Positions 263 through 15,458 of a stretch of 36,979 nucleotides of DNA are shown piece after piece; the stretch's first letter is position 1; each line of letters opens with the position of its first letter. Both the position numbers and the translations under genes were made by a program. The notes beneath the pieces were generated by a model, which did no database searches, was not told the DNA's origin, and worked only from the letters and a program-made list of their open reading frames with translations. This stretch comes from Desulfovibrionales bacterium (GTDB lineage: Bacteria > Desulfobacterota > Desulfovibrionia > Desulfovibrionales > Desulfovibrionaceae), in assembly GCA_030156255.1 (NCBI GenBank), contig JASGMV010000040.1, forward strand, positions 1 through 36,979, in the 5' to 3' direction.

Positions 263-2455
263 ATGAGGCTCATAACAACGTTGGCGCATAACCCTTTTCG
301 TCCAAAGCTGTGGCATGCGCAGCTTCTTGGACTATTGGCCTCAAGTATTTTCCTGATGGCGGCCTTGACGCCTGCGATGGCCGCCGCCCCCGACCCTGCT
401 CTCAATCTGACTTCGGAGGAGACGGCCTGGCTCAATAAAAACAAGGACAGCATCCTGTATGGCCCCAATCCCTATTGGCCCCCAGGCGACTATATGGAGA
501 ACGGAGAGCACAAGGGGATTGTCGCCGATTACATCAAGATATTCGAAAAAAAGCTCGGTGTTGAATTTAAACGCGTCTATTATAGCGATTGGGATAGTTT
601 CTATCATGGCCTGATGACGGGCGAGTACGATCTTGTCGGCGCTTGCCAGGAAACCGAAGAGCGCCAAAAGGTTCTCGTATTCACCGAACCCTTCCTGAAA
701 ACGCGGCTTGTCGTTTTGACCAGGACGAACAGTCCGCGCCTGAAGTCCCTGGATGAGCTCAACTCCATGACAATCGCCGGGATCGAGGGGTATTCCAGCC
801 TGGACTACGTAACAACGAAATACCCCGGGGCCAAAATCGTTCACTGTGAAGATGACCTGACGGTTTTGCTGAAAGTGTCGGCGGGCGCGGCCGATGGGGG
901 CGTTATAGATTATATGCTGGCCAGCTATCTGGTCGACAAATACGGCATCACGAATCTGAAATACGACACCGAACTCGATTTTCACTGGGATCTGCGATTC
1001 GCCGTCAATAAAGAAAAATCCACGCTCCGATCGATTCTTGACAAGGCGCTTCACACCATAAGCGAGGAACAGCGGCAGGCTATTTATAATAGATGGGTGG
1101 GCATCAGGCTTGAACGCGGTCCGGGTTTTTTTGAACGCAACCTGGAAATTATTGCAGCCTTCTTCGTCGTTATTCTGTTCCTGCTCGTCGGGGTGATAAT
1201 CTTTAATCGCTTCCTACAAAAGCAGGTCTCCGCACGCACGAAGGAGCTCAAGCAAAATGAGCAAGTATTAAGGGATGCTAAAGACGCCGCCGAAGCCGCC
1301 AACCGGACCAAGAGCGAATTTCTCGCCAACATGAGCCATGAGATACGAACCCCTCTCAATGGAGTGATTGGCATGCTCCAACTTGCTAAAACCACAGATT
1401 TAAATAGCGAGCAGACAGAGTACGTCGAGACAGCCATCCGCTCGAGCAAACGATTGACTCGTCTGCTATCCGACATCCTCGACCTGGCCAGGGTGGAAGC
1501 CGGAAAGCTTGAAATCTCCATGGAGTCGTTTGATTTTAATGATGCGATGGAATCCATCCTGCAGCTTTTCGCCCCTTCCGCCAAAGAGAAGCAGTTGGAT
1601 TTGTTGATGCGCGTCAATCCCGGTATCCCGGCGGTGCTGCAAGGGGATGGCGCGCGGTTGCAGCAGGTGCTCAGCAATTTGGTCGGCAACGCCATCAAAT
1701 TCACGAACAAGGGAAGGGTTGAAATTGACGCCCAACCCATGCCGTCGCCCAACCCCAATAAATGCCGTGTGTTATTTTCGATCTCCGACACAGGGATAGG
1801 CATCAGCGACGAGGTGATGGGCAAGCTGTTTTCGCCTTTTACCCAGGCGGAAGGAAGCTACAAACGCCGATTTCAGGGGGCTGGCCTTGGACTGGTCATC
1901 TCAAAGCGTCTTGTGGCGCTCATGGGCGGCTCTATGGCTGTGGAAAGCGAAGAAGGAGTGGGGTCATCCTTTTATTGCAGCATCCCTTTCACCATTCCCG
2001 AGCCAACGGTTTTAGATCCTGGCGTTATCCAAAAAACGATACGCTCGGACAGCCTCAAGGTGCTGTTGGCGGAGGATGACGAGACATCGAGGATCGCGGC
2101 CCAGAAATATCTAGAGAAACTGGGACATCAGGTGCAGACTGTCGATGATGGAGAGCAGGCGCTTGCGAGACTGCAAGAAGCTCCCTTTGACATCGTGTTC
2201 ATGGACATTCAAATGCCCGCCCGCGACGGGATAGAAGCTACGAAAGCAATCAGAAGCGGGGACGCCGGAAACAAGAACAAGGACGTGCCTGTCGTCGCCA
2301 TGACGGCATACGCCATGAGCGGAGACAAAGAAAAGTTTTTGAAGGCCGGCATGAATGATTACATTCCCAAGCCGGTCGATATGGAAAAACTTCAGGCGTT
2401 ATTGGTGAAAATGTTCAAAGGTTATCGCGGCGGCGAGCAATCCGTTTCCTCATAA
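263..2455 (+). CDS. Hybrid sensor histidine kinase with periplasmic solute-binding sensor
   Basis: 730 residues. Likely signal/anchor at about 20-41, then one periplasmic bacterial extracellular solute-binding family 3 domain (about 50-285), a TM helix at about 294-314, a short coiled coil, HisKA with phospho-acceptor His359 (motif [10 protein letters not shown]), HATPase_c (N-box around NAIKF at 476-480, G1 DTGIG at 509, G2 GAGLGL at 539) and a C-terminal receiver with Asp648 and Lys703. There is no PAS or HAMP domain between membrane and kinase, as in simple BvgS/EvgS relatives, so ligand binding outside probably couples straight to HisKA. The ligand is unknown; family 3 domains usually bind amino acids or similar small solutes. 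No separate response regulator is adjacent, so the output partner lies elsewhere. The ribosome binding site before the ATG is weak, but the signal peptide supports this start. Confidence 0.93.
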
Positions 2456-2639
2456 CCGCGCGGGAATAGATGCGAGACTTTGTTGGCGACAATGATCAGA
2501 AGGCGACGCCTGCGGGGGCGAGGGGAGGACGTTCGCCTTGGCGTCCAGGGCGACAGCGGACTCCATGCGCTTTTCTTCGGCATCCGTAGGGGATCGATGA
2601 TTCCGCTCCAACGCTCGATATTCCGCACCGGCCGCTGCT

Positions 2640-2659
2640 CCCCGCACGGCGCCGCGGGG
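2640..2659. terminator. GC hairpin between convergent genes
   Basis: CCCCGC and GCGGGG form a six-pair stem around an eight-base loop in the 220-bp gap between the ends of the kinase gene and the DsrE-family gene. No T tract follows on either strand, so an intrinsic terminator is only possible, not shown. Confidence 0.25.
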
Positions 2660-2675
2660 GCGTAGGCTCCCGTCA

Positions 2676-3017
2676 TCATATGGTGATCAGAGGCGCCTGC
2701 TCCTTGATGAGTTCGGTCAAAGGCGCGCCCCACATCTGTACGTCGACCCCAAGGCTCTGAAGCGCGTCTTTCACCCCGAGCCGGTCGGCGCAGGCTTCAC
2801 ACGCGCAGAACTCGACGCCGTCGTTCTGGGCGTCCGTTATCAGAGTTTGAATGTGCGGGTTTTCGGCGGCCAGTTGCGCCGTCGCTCCCCAGATAATCAC
2901 CTTCACTTTTTCCCACCACCCCCTTCGCGCGGAATTGCTGGCATACATCAACACCATCAACTCGGACGTCACGGGGTCCGCGTTGGTCCACAGGATGTTC
3001 AACTTGTCCTTGTCCAT
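2676..3017 (-). CDS. DsrE-family small protein
   Basis: 113 residues, one DsrE/DsrF-like domain. The N-terminal strand and phosphate-loop-like start (LNILWTNADPVTSELM), a central segment (KVIIWGATAQLAAENP) and the cysteine motif CEACADRLG at about 72-80 are typical of the cytoplasmic DsrE-like family, whose members often take part in sulfur relay or oligomerise as small redox or sulfur carriers. No function can be given for this member. A strong ribosome binding site (AAAGGAGGAGG) precedes the ATG. It diverges from a TetR regulator, and its candidate promoter lies between two matching operator-like repeats, so repression by that regulator is likely. Confidence 0.85.
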   Translation of the reverse strand: MDKDKLNILWTNADPVTSELMVLMYASNSARRGWWEKVKVIIWGATAQLAAENPHIQTLITDAQNDGVEFCACEACADRLGVKDALQSLGVDVQMWGAPLTELIKEQAPLITI

Positions 3018-3125
3018 GGCTCCTCCTCCTTTTTATCGTTCATGAGCCGCGGCGCGAGTTTCGGAAGACGCCCGGCTTGTTTCCTGCCGCCTGTTTCGTC
3101 CGGCGTCTCGTCGCATCGAGTCAAC

Positions 3126-3192
3126 TTGAATGTTCACTAAAGTTAGAGACAGGGAAAGCGCTTGTCAACAACTTTTTGAATGTTTACTCAAA
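3126..3192. promoter_or_regulatory. Pair of TetR operator-like repeats flanking the promoter
   Basis: TTGAATGTTCACTAAA (3126-3141) and TTGAATGTTTACTCAAA (3176-3192) are near-identical direct repeats whose starts are exactly 50 bp apart, about five helical turns. Each is an imperfect dyad of the form TGAATG-N2-TACTCA, a layout common for TetR-family sites. The first overlaps the -10 of the minus-strand promoter and the second lies just upstream of its -35. The second also overlaps a weak plus-strand -10-like TACTCA placed 17 bases after TTGTCA, which could serve the TetR gene itself. Binding by the adjacent TetR protein is inferred. Confidence 0.55.
3140..3168 (-). promoter_or_regulatory. Sigma-70-type promoter of the DsrE-family gene
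   Basis: On the minus strand a perfect TTGACA (3168-3163) is followed after exactly 17 bases by TAACTT (3145-3140). The start codon is about 120 bases downstream. This is the best-formed promoter-like pair in the window. Confidence 0.65.
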
Positions 3193-3246
3193 ACGAGGGC
3201 GTAATTCGCGACTCGTTGAATCCCGGCTCGCCCGCGAGGTGCATCC

Positions 3247-3819
3247 ATGGCGAAAGCTCAGTACGACAGGGAAGAGGTCATCGATAAATCGCTCGAATTG
3301 TTTTGGCGGAACGGCTTCAGCGGTTCGTCCATGCAGCAGGTGGTGGAGACGACGGGCCTCAAGCCCGGGTCGATCTACTATTCGTTCGGGAACAAGGAAG
3401 CCTTGTTCAAGGAAGCCTTGGACCACTACGCCCGGGCGAGTCTTGCGCGAATCCGGACCACGCTGGATTCCGCGCCGAGCGTCGGGGAAGGCCTTTGCCT
3501 GTTTTTGGAGAGGATGGCGGGCGAGGCCGCCAAGCAAGAATTCCGAAGCTGCTTTCTGGTCAAGACTCAGCTCGAACTGGCGGCTGACGGCGGCGAATTG
3601 CACGCCTTCGCCGCCGCCAAGCTGCGCGAGGTGGAGGCCCTTTTCCAGAGCTATCTCGAAAGAGAATATGACAGGGAGACGAGCAGGAATCGTGCGGCCG
3701 GCATCATGCTGCACATCTTCGGCATGCGCGTCTACGGCTACCAGCCGAACTCGGTGGATCGCATGCTCCGGGTGCTGCGTGAAAGCTTGCCCTGGCTGCC
3801 ATGGCCCGACGAACCTTGA
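3247..3819 (+). CDS. TetR/AcrR-family transcriptional regulator
   Basis: 190 residues. The N-terminal helix-turn-helix domain (about 6-60) carries the usual pattern: GFSGSSMQQVVETTGLKPGSIYYSFGNKEALF. The C-terminal ligand-binding half has RSCFLVKTQLELA, matching the GCL(L/V)-type segment of one TetR subgroup. GAGGTG lies eight bases before the ATG. It diverges from the DsrE-family gene, with two operator-like repeats between them, so it probably represses that gene and itself. The inducer is unknown. The ferric-reductase-like gene begins 120 bases downstream on the same strand and could be co-transcribed. Confidence 0.92.
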   Translation: MAKAQYDREEVIDKSLELFWRNGFSGSSMQQVVETTGLKPGSIYYSFGNKEALFKEALDHYARASLARIRTTLDSAPSVGEGLCLFLERMAGEAAKQEFRSCFLVKTQLELAADGGELHAFAAAKLREVEALFQSYLEREYDRETSRNRAAGIMLHIFGMRVYGYQPNSVDRMLRVLRESLPWLPWPDEP

Positions 3820-3938
3820 GCCCCTCCAGCCGTGGGCTCAAGTCCACGCCCGAAAGAACATATCTATCGGGCGCCATGGCGCAGTCTGCGGCTATGTGGT
3901 ACGAGCACCGGAAAGCGTAGACTTCGGAGGGGTTCCAC

Positions 3939-5282
3939 GTGTTAAAGATCATGATGCTGGCGGTATACAGCCTCTCTCCATTGATTCCGGCTATCCTGTT
4001 TTTTTCCGCGCCCACGGGGGCGTTGACGAAAGGCTTGAACGCGGTCGCCGTGACTTTCGGCATGGTCGCTTACGTCTGTTTTTGTTGGCAGTTCATTCTT
4101 GTCTCTCGCGTAAAGTTCATCGAACGCGTTGTCGGGCAGGACCGCCTGATTCGATTCCATCTGTACGTTGCTCTTGGCGCATTGGCGTGTGCAGGGCTTC
4201 ATTCCAGCCTGATTCCGGGACTGAAGGGGAATGGACTGCAGGCTTCGATCGGACAATTGGCGTTGAATATATTCATATATATTTCAATATTCAGCGCTAT
4301 ATTTTTAAGCGATTTTTTCGTAACCAAGATTCCACACGCCAAGAAATGGCGCGATCTTCTCGTTGCCCGCATCCGCTTGGACCGTAAATGGTCCCTCTAC
4401 GCGCACCGGGTGCTGGCCCTTGCTCTGGCCTTGGCCTGTCTGCATATCATGCTTGCACCCGTGCAGGGGCGGGCCCTCTTTAAAGGTTCGATTTTCATCT
4501 ACTGGGCAGTGGCGATGTCCGTGTATGGTTACCGTGCGTTTCCCCGCAAACGGCGCCTTGGCCGGAGGCCGTACCGAGTCACGGAAGTGAGGCCGGAGTC
4601 AAAGGACGCTTGGACCGTTTCTTTGGAGCCTGCAAGCGGCCAGGCGTCCATATCTTTTGCGCCTGGCCAGTTTATCTATTTCACGCCGCTGACCGGGAAA
4701 CTGCAACGGGAGGAGCATCCATTCAGCATATCCTCGTCGCCCCGCGAGAACATCAGTGTGACCGTCAAGTCGCTCGGTGATTTCACCTCGAAAATCGGCG
4801 GCCTGGAGCGTGGTGATTATGTCCGGGTGGACGGTCCTTACGGCAGATTCAGCTACCGCCTCGTCCGCCGTGGCGCCGAGCTGGTTTTCATCGCCGGGGG
4901 AATCGGCGTAACGCCGTTTCTCAGCATGCTGCAGGACCTTTCCCGCGAGGCCCCCGATAGAAAGGTGATTTTGCTATGGGGCGCAAAGCATGAAAAGGAT
5001 CTGATTCGCGTCAAGGAGATCGAAGCTTTGGCCGACCGGCTGCCCAACCTGTCCTTTTATCCCGTACTGTCCCGAGAGACGAGTTACAGCGGTTTGCGAG
5101 GCCGTATCGACAAAAATTTGTTGGTAAGGATTTTAGGGCCGCAGCCGGCCGGCGGGGCGGGCGACGCGCAAAGGGAGTTTTTTATTTGCGCGCCGCCCGT
5201 GGTTATCGATAGCGTTGCGCGCTTTCTGCAGCAGTTGGGCGTGGCGAAGCGGAAGATTCATTTCGAAAAATTTTCCTTTTGA
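3939..5282 (+). CDS. Ferric-reductase-like transmembrane flavoprotein
   Basis: 447 residues, GTG start nine bases after CGGAGGGG. The N-terminal half has about six hydrophobic segments with two His pairs, His74/His88 and His156/His169, at the spacing expected of bis-heme ligands in the ferric reductase-like/NADPH oxidase superfamily. The C-terminal half is a ferredoxin-reductase-type module: FAD site HPFSISSS at 260-267, GPYGRF at 299-304, NAD(P)-binding GGIGVTPF at 320-327 and a terminal ICAPP at 416-420, where many relatives have CGPP. It should move electrons from NAD(P)H through FAD and heme across the inner membrane. The acceptor (metal, oxygen, quinone or a protein) cannot be told from sequence. 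Nearby DsrE/TetR genes hint at a redox or stress setting, but this is only context. Confidence 0.88.
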   Translation: MLKIMMLAVYSLSPLIPAILFFSAPTGALTKGLNAVAVTFGMVAYVCFCWQFILVSRVKFIERVVGQDRLIRFHLYVALGALACAGLHSSLIPGLKGNGLQASIGQLALNIFIYISIFSAIFLSDFFVTKIPHAKKWRDLLVARIRLDRKWSLYAHRVLALALALACLHIMLAPVQGRALFKGSIFIYWAVAMSVYGYRAFPRKRRLGRRPYRVTEVRPESKDAWTVSLEPASGQASISFAPGQFIYFTPLTGKLQREEHPFSISSSPRENISVTVKSLGDFTSKIGGLERGDYVRVDGPYGRFSYRLVRRGAELVFIAGGIGVTPFLSMLQDLSREAPDRKVILLWGAKHEKDLIRVKEIEALADRLPNLSFYPVLSRETSYSGLRGRIDKNLLVRILGPQPAGGAGDAQREFFICAPPVVIDSVARFLQQLGVAKRKIHFEKFSF

Positions 5283-5334
5283 GGTGGAGGGGCCGCTTGC
5301 TTTGTCCTTTGCGGCCATCGCGCGCCATACAATA

Positions 5335-5457
5335 GAGCATATTACGCTTGAAATGCTTGCTTCACGGCGAGCGTAGCTCGCCTGCAAGCATTCCGCAGCA
5401 ATGATTTGCGGAAAAATCCTTGCCGAGCAGTTAAATTTTTTCAAAGTTAACCTGCTC
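5335..5457 (-). repeat. Three-hairpin repeat, copy A (inverted)
   Basis: Read on the minus strand it begins GAGCAGGTTAAC and ends ATATGCTC. It has three hairpins in order: a first arm pair GAGCAG/CTGCTC with inner TTAA/TTAA, a second around AAGGATTT/AAATC, and a third GAATGCTTGC/GCAAGCATTT enclosing GGCGAGC-TACGCTCGCC. Over the last 91 bases it matches copy B at roughly 85 percent by hand alignment. It starts 52 bases after the ferric-reductase-like stop. The rest of the 453-base gap (5283-5735) shows no gene. Confidence 0.8.
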
Positions 5458-5735
5458 AAGCGGCTCAAGCGGGGAGCAGTGAGGAGACGGCCCTGCGCGT
5501 TCTATCCCTTGGTCTCAGTATTGAGAGAATGCGGCGCCCTGCATGTTGCTCAATAAAGAGGACGCTCGTCTGCGATCTGGACATCGCCAGCGAAATTTGT
5601 TTTTATCGTTAAACGTTCGGCTTCCGCCGCGCGGTGGCGTCGGGTTCGGCTTTTATCCGGGGGCCGCAGACAACTGATTGCCCCGCCAGCGCTTCCGTCG
5701 CGGACGGGCAACAATCTAGCAGCAGAGGGAGCATC

Positions 5736-6182
5736 ATGTACCTCATTTATCTTGCCGCGGCGTCTTTGTTGTTCGCTCTTGTAAACATCATTTTTTTTGG
5801 CGGTCCCGTGGCGGCCTCGCTTGTGAAATGGATATTGACCATCCTGGTCGGCTTTGGATCGATCTGGGCTTTTTTGGGGCATTATTTCAAATCCGACGAG
5901 ACCGCACGCTTCATCGGCTGGCCGGAGGGGAATCCTTTTCAAAAGGAGATCGCTTTCGCCAACCTGGGCTTGGGAGTGAGCGGCGTGCTGTGTCTCTTCT
6001 CCGGTACGGGATTTTGGCTGGCCACCATGGTCTTCACCACGATTTTCATGGTCGGGGCCTTCTCGGTCCATGTGGGTGAGCAAAAGCGCACCGGAAACCG
6101 CAACCCCGGCAACGCGGGAGGCATTTTTTACGCGGACATCACGATTCCCATTGTCTTGTGGTTTCTCTACCTTTTCGTCTAG
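5736..6182 (+). CDS. Four-TM conserved membrane protein, DUF6790-like
   Basis: 148 residues with four predicted hydrophobic helices (about 2-20, 27-45, 70-92, 93-112 or nearby, plus a hydrophobic C-terminus). Polar conserved-looking features between helices include NPFQKEIAFANLGLG, a His in SVHVGEQK, and NPGNAGGIFYADI before the last helix, resembling the DUF6790 family. Function is unknown. The ATG at 5736 is chosen because AGAGGGAG sits five bases before it and the protein begins directly with a TM helix; the frame stays open 34 codons upstream without a plausible signal. The gene lies alone between two inverted copies of the three-hairpin repeat. Confidence 0.8.
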   Translation: MYLIYLAAASLLFALVNIIFFGGPVAASLVKWILTILVGFGSIWAFLGHYFKSDETARFIGWPEGNPFQKEIAFANLGLGVSGVLCLFSGTGFWLATMVFTTIFMVGAFSVHVGEQKRTGNRNPGNAGGIFYADITIPIVLWFLYLFV

Positions 6183-6262
6183 CTGCGTTCTCGAAGCAGC
6201 CCACTCGGCGGCTGGCGTGAATGCATACGGTACGCCGGGAATGCTGAACGGACCGGCCAGCA

Positions 6263-6383
6263 GCAGCTGAATATTGAAAATATTCAACTGCGCGGCAAGG
6301 ATTTGCGGGCAAATCCTTGCCGCGAAATGCTTGCCGGCGGGTGACGCTCGCCGTGAAGCAGGCATTTCAAGCGCAGTATGCTC
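6263..6383 (+). repeat. Three-hairpin repeat, copy B
   Basis: Starts GCAGCTGAATATTG, then the core CGGCAAGGATTTGCGG, then GAAATGCTTGCC paired with GAAGCAGGCATTTC, ending TATGCTC. The first hairpin has different arms from the other copies (TGAATAT/ATATTCA) but remains base-paired. It lies 80 bases after the DUF6790-like gene and is inverted relative to copy A. Confidence 0.8.
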
Positions 6384-6497
6384 TGAAAAACGACGCGCTG
6401 GAGCTGCGGCTTTCCCGACAAGATGTCCTCCCGACGGTTATCCTCGCTGTGCACAGGCTTGACCGAATAAAGGCCTGTGGGCTATATGACGCGTTCG

Positions 6498-15342: not shown

Positions 15343-15458
15343 GAGCATGTCAACTTTGCAAAAGTTGCCATGCTCGGCAAGGATTCGCTCGCAAATCCTT
15401 GCCGCGAAATGCTTGCAGGCGTCCGCCGTTAAGCAAGCATTTCAAGCGTCATACGCTC
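15343..15458 (+). repeat. Three-hairpin repeat, copy C
   Basis: First hairpin GAGCATG-T-CAACTTT / AAAGTTG-C-CATGCTC, fourteen pairs with one mismatch and loop GCA. Second: GGCAAGGATT and AATCCTTGCC. Third: GAAATGCTTGC and GCAAGCATTTC. It ends six bases before the AGGCGGAGGT ribosome binding site of the kinase gene, so it would lie in the 5' leader of any longer transcript. Confidence 0.82.

Follow-up and report, generated by a model that had tools for sequence, protein, structure and literature searches.

A gene for a DsrE-family protein and a gene for a TetR-family repressor stand back to back in a Desulfovibrionales bacterium, and two matching repeats lie between them, on either side of the dsrE promoter. 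What do these repeats do, and do both of them act on dsrE? In the following, the window means the whole stretch of DNA that was analysed, 36,979 nucleotides long (contig C64 of genome G000). Very probably it contains a functional genetic switch of a well-known kind, the repressor and gene set of which are apparently undescribed.

Layout of the gene pair and its promoters

The two genes are divergent, dsrE on the minus strand and tetR on the plus strand, and their start codons are 229 bp apart, slightly above the distance of under 200 bp that the excerpt of PMC3511530 gives as a rule of thumb. The features are as follows (bit scores of operators come from the weight matrix described below).

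2676 to 3017, minus strand: DsrE-family protein, the proposed target gene (113 aa; PF02635, 27.5 bits)
3123 to 3144, no strand: predicted operator 1, centre 3133.5, over the dsrE -10 and predicted transcript start (28.5 bits; conserved position)
3140 to 3145, minus strand: candidate dsrE -10, TAACTT, on the border of operator 1 (genomes G061, G239, G312 and G321 also have this hexamer at 17 nt from TTGACA)
3162 to 3167, plus strand: tentative candidate tetR -35, TTGTCA, overlapping the dsrE -35 (same place in G061, locus L005)
3163 to 3168, minus strand: dsrE -35, TTGACA
3173 to 3194, no strand: predicted operator 2 (23.3 bits), centred at 3183.5, which covers the candidate tetR promoter and lies upstream of the dsrE -35
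3185 to 3190, plus strand: weak candidate tetR -10, TACTCA, inside operator 2 (17 nt from TTGTCA; 2 of 6 positions match TATAAT)
3247 to 3819, plus strand: TetR-family repressor (190 aa; nearest solved relative CifR, 6nsn)

The DsrE-family protein passes the gathering score of PF02635 (cut-off 22.7 bits) over profile columns 31–112 of 116, and its copies in genomes G047, G007 and G030 are 65%, 59% and 58% identical. It carries a CACEAC cysteine cluster, the last two cysteines of which (CxxC) are kept in the relatives inspected. At the N-terminus of the TetR protein is a TetR_N helix-turn-helix (PF00440, 47.4 bits; cut-off 24).

The first-pass annotation had described matching repeats 50 bp apart around the dsrE promoter, and this description holds: TTGAATGTTCACTAAA at 3126–3141 and TTGAATGTTTACTCAA at 3176–3191 are 88% identical, with a start-to-start distance of 50 bp. 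Each copy is an imperfect dyad, with the halves AACTTGAATGT and TCACTAAAGTT in the first and TTTTGAATGT and TTACTCAAAA in the second, and extends to 22 bp; the right half of operator 1 is poor (CTAAA). The dyad centres flank TTGACA-17-TAACTT on the minus strand, so that the two promoter elements, with their 17-nt spacer, lie between and partly inside the repeats. In other words, a palindromic predicted operator overlaps the core promoter of the divergent gene.

A strict consensus scan of positions 2400–4000 returned no sigma-70 promoter, because TAACTT agrees with TATAAT at only three of six positions. The dsrE promoter is a candidate call, for which the evidence is its conservation, the -35 and a distance of 17 nt from there to a weak -10. 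Transcription would be expected to start about 7 nt past the -10, near 3133, which is the centre of operator 1, with operator 2 centred about 50 bp upstream. For tetR, two promoter layouts were seen among the relatives. In one, a TTGTCA-like -35 is followed after 17 nt by TAYTCA, with this -10 within operator 2; in the other, found at seven loci, TTGAAY lies within operator 2 and TATANT 17–18 nt further on. Neither layout was found at some of the orthologous loci, and in the window only TTGTCA-17-TACTCA fits. The suggestion that the second repeat could overlap a weak opposite promoter for tetR is therefore borne out in part: judged from these layouts, operator 2 probably extends into the core promoter of tetR under both, with a -10 candidate that is weak in the window and a promoter less certain than that of dsrE.

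We hold it highly probable that the repeats are operators of the adjacent TetR, by which dsrE would be blocked from two ends, tetR would be autorepressed, and both would be released on thiol stress. We infer binding and repression; the sites and their conservation were observed computationally. One TetR dimer would sit on operator 1, over the dsrE -10 and start site, and a second would occupy operator 2, immediately 5' of the dsrE -35. Two such dimers would span most of the footprint of RNA polymerase, so that repression would amount to steric exclusion from both ends, and since operator 2 overlaps the likely tetR core promoter, its occupation would also mean autorepression.

The operator pair in relatives and away from tetR

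TetR orthologues were collected from the relatives set (3 of its 98 other genomes; 61–68% identity), from four further genomes of the class (E <= 1e-30) and from 23 genome_contigs records (44–68% identity), the titles of which span several phyla. Together with the window, this makes 31 loci, near-identical ones (e.g., L073 and L075) being kept. The 350 bp upstream of each tetR were scanned with a site threshold of 13 of 16.

At least one site was found upstream of the orthologue at 30 of the 31 loci; L083, with an orthologue 48% identical, has none within 350 bp. A pair 48–55 bp apart is present at 19 loci: 14 pairs at exactly 50 bp, two at 48, and one each at 51, 52 and 55. At seven other loci (six gammaproteobacterial by title and one from Kiritimatiellaeota), the operators number two or three and follow each other in steps of 23–24 bp, with one further 33-bp step at two of these loci. 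Three loci have a single operator, and the two sites of L070, one of them weak, are separated by 87 bp. The pair counts disregard additional weak sites (score 13) at L069, L070 and L074, and the tally of 31 loci leaves out three pairs discussed below, namely a pair away from tetR in G061 and second pairs in G007 and G030. At the gammaproteobacterial loci L077, L079, L080, L084 and L085, three operators, mostly 23 bp apart and with no 50-bp pair, precede glutathione S-transferase (GST) or peroxiredoxin genes. The second G030 pair (L103, 1667 and 1715; 48 bp) is located 3' of tetR without a clear target gene, and may be what remains after a target disappeared.

All 19 pairs enclose a -35-like NGTCAA (TGTCAA in 16), which is 29 or 30 bp from the centre of operator 1 in 17 of them and 27 and 35 bp in the other two. 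The first-pass annotation would have been refuted by absence of the repeats from orthologous regions with the same gene pair; they are present, at exactly 50 bp, in all five other loci where dsrE is directly divergent from tetR (L004, L064, L068, L069 and L081; DsrE identity 49–67%). The pair in orthologous loci thus supports the proposal of paired operators for the adjacent TetR around the dsrE promoter, as far as comparison of sequences can.

Does the pair belong to dsrE, or is it simply one operator for each of two back-to-back promoters, without joint action on dsrE? The latter, which is compatible with TetR binding, is a real if unlikely possibility. It agrees with the overlap of operator 2 with the candidate tetR promoter, with a distance of 50 bp that is out of helical phase, and with G061, where the ORF list shows nothing divergent from tetR, which keeps one operator with TTGTCA beside it. 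The main objection comes from target promoters that are apart from tetR and keep both operators around TTGACA-17. In G061, on a different contig from tetR, TTGACA-17-TAACTT has an operator on either side, 49 bp from each other; the gene after it encodes an FMN reductase (PF03358), and dsrE comes about 270 bp further along the same strand. Upstream, the closest ORF longer than 100 aa has the same orientation, and a 78-aa opposite ORF listed as overlapping the operator is taken as spurious. G007 has a second pair, 50 bp apart around TTGACA-17-TATTTT, before peroxiredoxin and dsrE genes and 350–400 bp from the tetR-side operators. These two cases indicate that the pair belongs to the target promoter and not to the back-to-back arrangement alone, and they are the strongest evidence, at the level of sequence, that both sites would act on a dsrE-type promoter. 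A further objection is that in L004, L073 and L075 (two of them near-identical) the -35 has moved by 1 bp, and the operators are still 50 bp apart.

This constancy may reflect some direct constraint on the distance, and a related idea is that the promoter is shut by dimers that bind cooperatively or are joined by a short loop of DNA. In its favour, both sites are strong and their distance is almost constant (exactly 50 bp in 14 of 19 pairs). Against it, 50 bp corresponds to 4.76 helical turns (10.5 bp per turn), and distances of 48, 49, 51, 52 and 55 bp are also found. Repressor loops are usually longer than 50 bp, and TetR dimers usually bind without tetramerisation. We regard such a mechanism as quite improbable. 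The version in the first-pass annotation, in which the 50-bp period puts both sites on the same helix face, had to be given up, because the sites are about 86 degrees off and the spacing varies among relatives (48, 51, 52 and 55 bp); helical phase gives no support to cooperative binding. Under steric exclusion from both ends, the near-fixed distance would fit the geometry of the promoter itself, with operator 1 on the -10 and operator 2 just upstream of the -35.

Co-occurrence with the TetR orthologue and the question of chance

Could the sites belong to another regulator, with the TetR gene a bystander? Of the 348 genomes of the class, seven contain a pattern written for the spaced pair, at one place each, and its reversed control has no match. 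These seven are among the eight genomes with an orthologue (E <= 1e-30), and the pair is absent from all 340 others (Fisher p = 7e-14, ignoring relatedness); since the pattern was written from these same sites, the figures describe its specificity and are not an independent discovery. The orthologue-bearing genome missed is G007, the pairs of which deviate in letters. As a contrast set, 30 loci of dsrE homologues were scanned at a score of at least 14. Sites were found at the dsrE loci of the window, G007, G030 and G061, all in orthologue-bearing genomes, and a lone site (15 of 16) at L037 of G065, a genome without an orthologue at E 1e-30; the other 25 loci have none. The lone site near dsrE is what a different regulator would predict, and against it stand the co-occurrence in the class and the sites upstream of the orthologue in 30 of 31 loci, across several phyla by title and beside differing neighbour genes. 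We therefore reject another regulator as very improbable.

That the repeat arose by chance has a negligible probability and is already refuted by its conservation, by scores far above random and by its unique places in the genome (at most one mismatch), even though the 13-mer with three mismatches is no rarer in the window than chance (9 occurrences against 8.0 expected), a count on which the case for operators is not based. A symmetric weight matrix was built from 58 sites at 29 other loci, with the window left out, and over the whole window the two sites rank first and second (28.5 and 23.3 bits), the third match scoring 4.7 bits. In 300 first-order Markov sequences of window length, the top score averaged 5.4 and reached at most 20.0. 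In its own genome (3.84 Mb in 106 contigs), the shared 13-mer TTGAATGTTYACT occurs with at most one mismatch only at the two places in the window, and the reversed 13-mer once; the spaced pair occurs once and its control not at all. With at most two mismatches, 22 sites were found against one for the reversed control, from which a wider regulon is not claimed.

Several observations concern the rest of the genome and the window. A perfect match to the operator consensus, TTGAACATTTGTTCAA, stands singly within an ORF of another contig (G000:C35, 72040–72055; L105, centre 3048), and may be chance or a second target. At 3939–5282, 3' of tetR, is a gene for a ferric-reductase-like flavoprotein with NAD and FAD domains (Ferric_reduct just under the cut-off), and the 119-bp gap between the two genes contains none of the eight best matrix matches of the window. 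A 123-nt inverted repeat (83%) at 5334–5456 and 6262–6384 surrounds a DUF6790 gene (5634–6182), with a further copy (78%) at 15344–15458. The matches listed in the own genome include 42 of this element, itself included (40 of 105 candidates scored), and its full-length copies are at most 95% identical, which suggests a dispersed REP- or MITE-like family.

The proposed sensor cysteine, the neighbouring genes and known relatives

What might the repressor sense? Cys102 is present in all 31 orthologues and Cys84 in 30, and the recognition region reads GLKPGS in 29 and GLQPGS in two. Cys102 shares its alignment column with Cys106 of NemR from E. coli K-12. A cysteine in this column is common among TetR repressors. 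We infer that the window TetR senses thiol stress: oxidative, electrophilic or reactive-sulfur stress would modify Cys102, perhaps with Cys84, and the modified dimer would leave both sites, so that dsrE and tetR would be switched on together.

The genes directly divergent from tetR were identified by tblastn. They include dsrE itself in 6 of the 31 loci (the window among them), an AhpC/TSA-type peroxiredoxin in 12 (ten at least 56% identical to that of L066, PF00578; L067 and L070 at 39–40%), GST in three, each with a second GST behind it (Pfam test on L077), and a carboxymuconolactone decarboxylase-like protein in four (L063, PF02627; L073, L074 and L075), that of L073 having no Pfam match despite its likeness to those of L074 and L075. 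None of these four types is divergent at the remaining six loci, which include an alpha/beta hydrolase (PF07859) in L078 and a protein without a Pfam match in L071. In G007, L088 and L089, dsrE lies behind the peroxiredoxin gene. For the genome of the window, a search for a G007-like peroxiredoxin gave no match, a result that leaves absence unproven as it had no positive control. Judging by these assignments, the common theme is thiol and redox defence, and the genes induced in the relatives would be those for peroxiredoxin, FMN reductase, a carboxymuconolactone decarboxylase-like protein or GST.

Among solved structures, the closest to the window TetR is CifR of Pseudomonas aeruginosa (PDB 6nsn and 6nsm; E 7.5e-22), which also has a divergent gene; the position aligned with Cys102 is Cys in 6nsn and Ser in 6nsm. 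The excerpt of PMC8244358 describes CifR as an epoxide-responsive regulator of an epoxide hydrolase operon, and two CifR binding sites are named in the title of a work cited there. In contrast, the target here is DsrE, and in relatives peroxiredoxin, FMN reductase and GST; no alpha/beta hydrolase is among the five window proteins scanned around TetR, and L077 has a gene downstream that looks like one by eye. NemR of E. coli is a cysteine repressor beside nemA and gloA, whereas the neighbours in the window differ, and the 16 NCBIfam matches of the window TetR include no NemR model (the presence of which in the library is unconfirmed). In Pantoea ananatis, thiol-stress genes are repressed by AltR, a NemR-like member of the TetR family that has palindromic operators at several promoters and needs Cys100 for its response to thiosulfinate (excerpt of PMC13178969); its operator as given there, CAATCTAC-N6-GTAGATTG, is unlike the window motif TTGAAYRWWYRTTCAA, and its target cluster is also different. 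DitR of Stenotrophomonas maltophilia, another TetR repressor, probably has three boxes across one promoter, one between the -35 and the -10 and another immediately 5' of the -35 (excerpt of PMC9342713), and differs in its cysteines (92 and 127), its operator and its MFS transporter targets. Both the mechanism and the family are known: a CifR/NemR-like TetR, with multiple operators on one promoter as in DitR. Among the matches listed in the open-licence literature, there was no paper on this operator, the TetR-DsrE pair or the regulon, and six 16-mers of the motif matched one Mollicutes restriction-modification paper.

As a broader and tentative idea, to which we give somewhat less than an even chance, these loci may represent an undescribed thiol-stress regulon that is spread over several phyla under one cysteine-bearing TetR, and in which a near-fixed sandwich module (operator, about 7 bp, TTGACA, 17 bp, and a -10 at the edge of the second operator) travels as a unit with the target promoters; in sulfate reducers, a DsrE-type sulfur carrier would then be tied to stress from electrophiles or reactive sulfur.

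An unnamed TetR and an unnamed DsrE-family protein become a probable regulator-target pair with a defined predicted binding motif, and the operator shared with relatives ties the DsrE protein to genes of redox defence (peroxiredoxin, FMN reductase and GST). With this motif, the regulon can be traced through many environmental anaerobes and through marine gammaproteobacteria, while the cysteine shared by all orthologues offers a direct handle on what the TetR senses.
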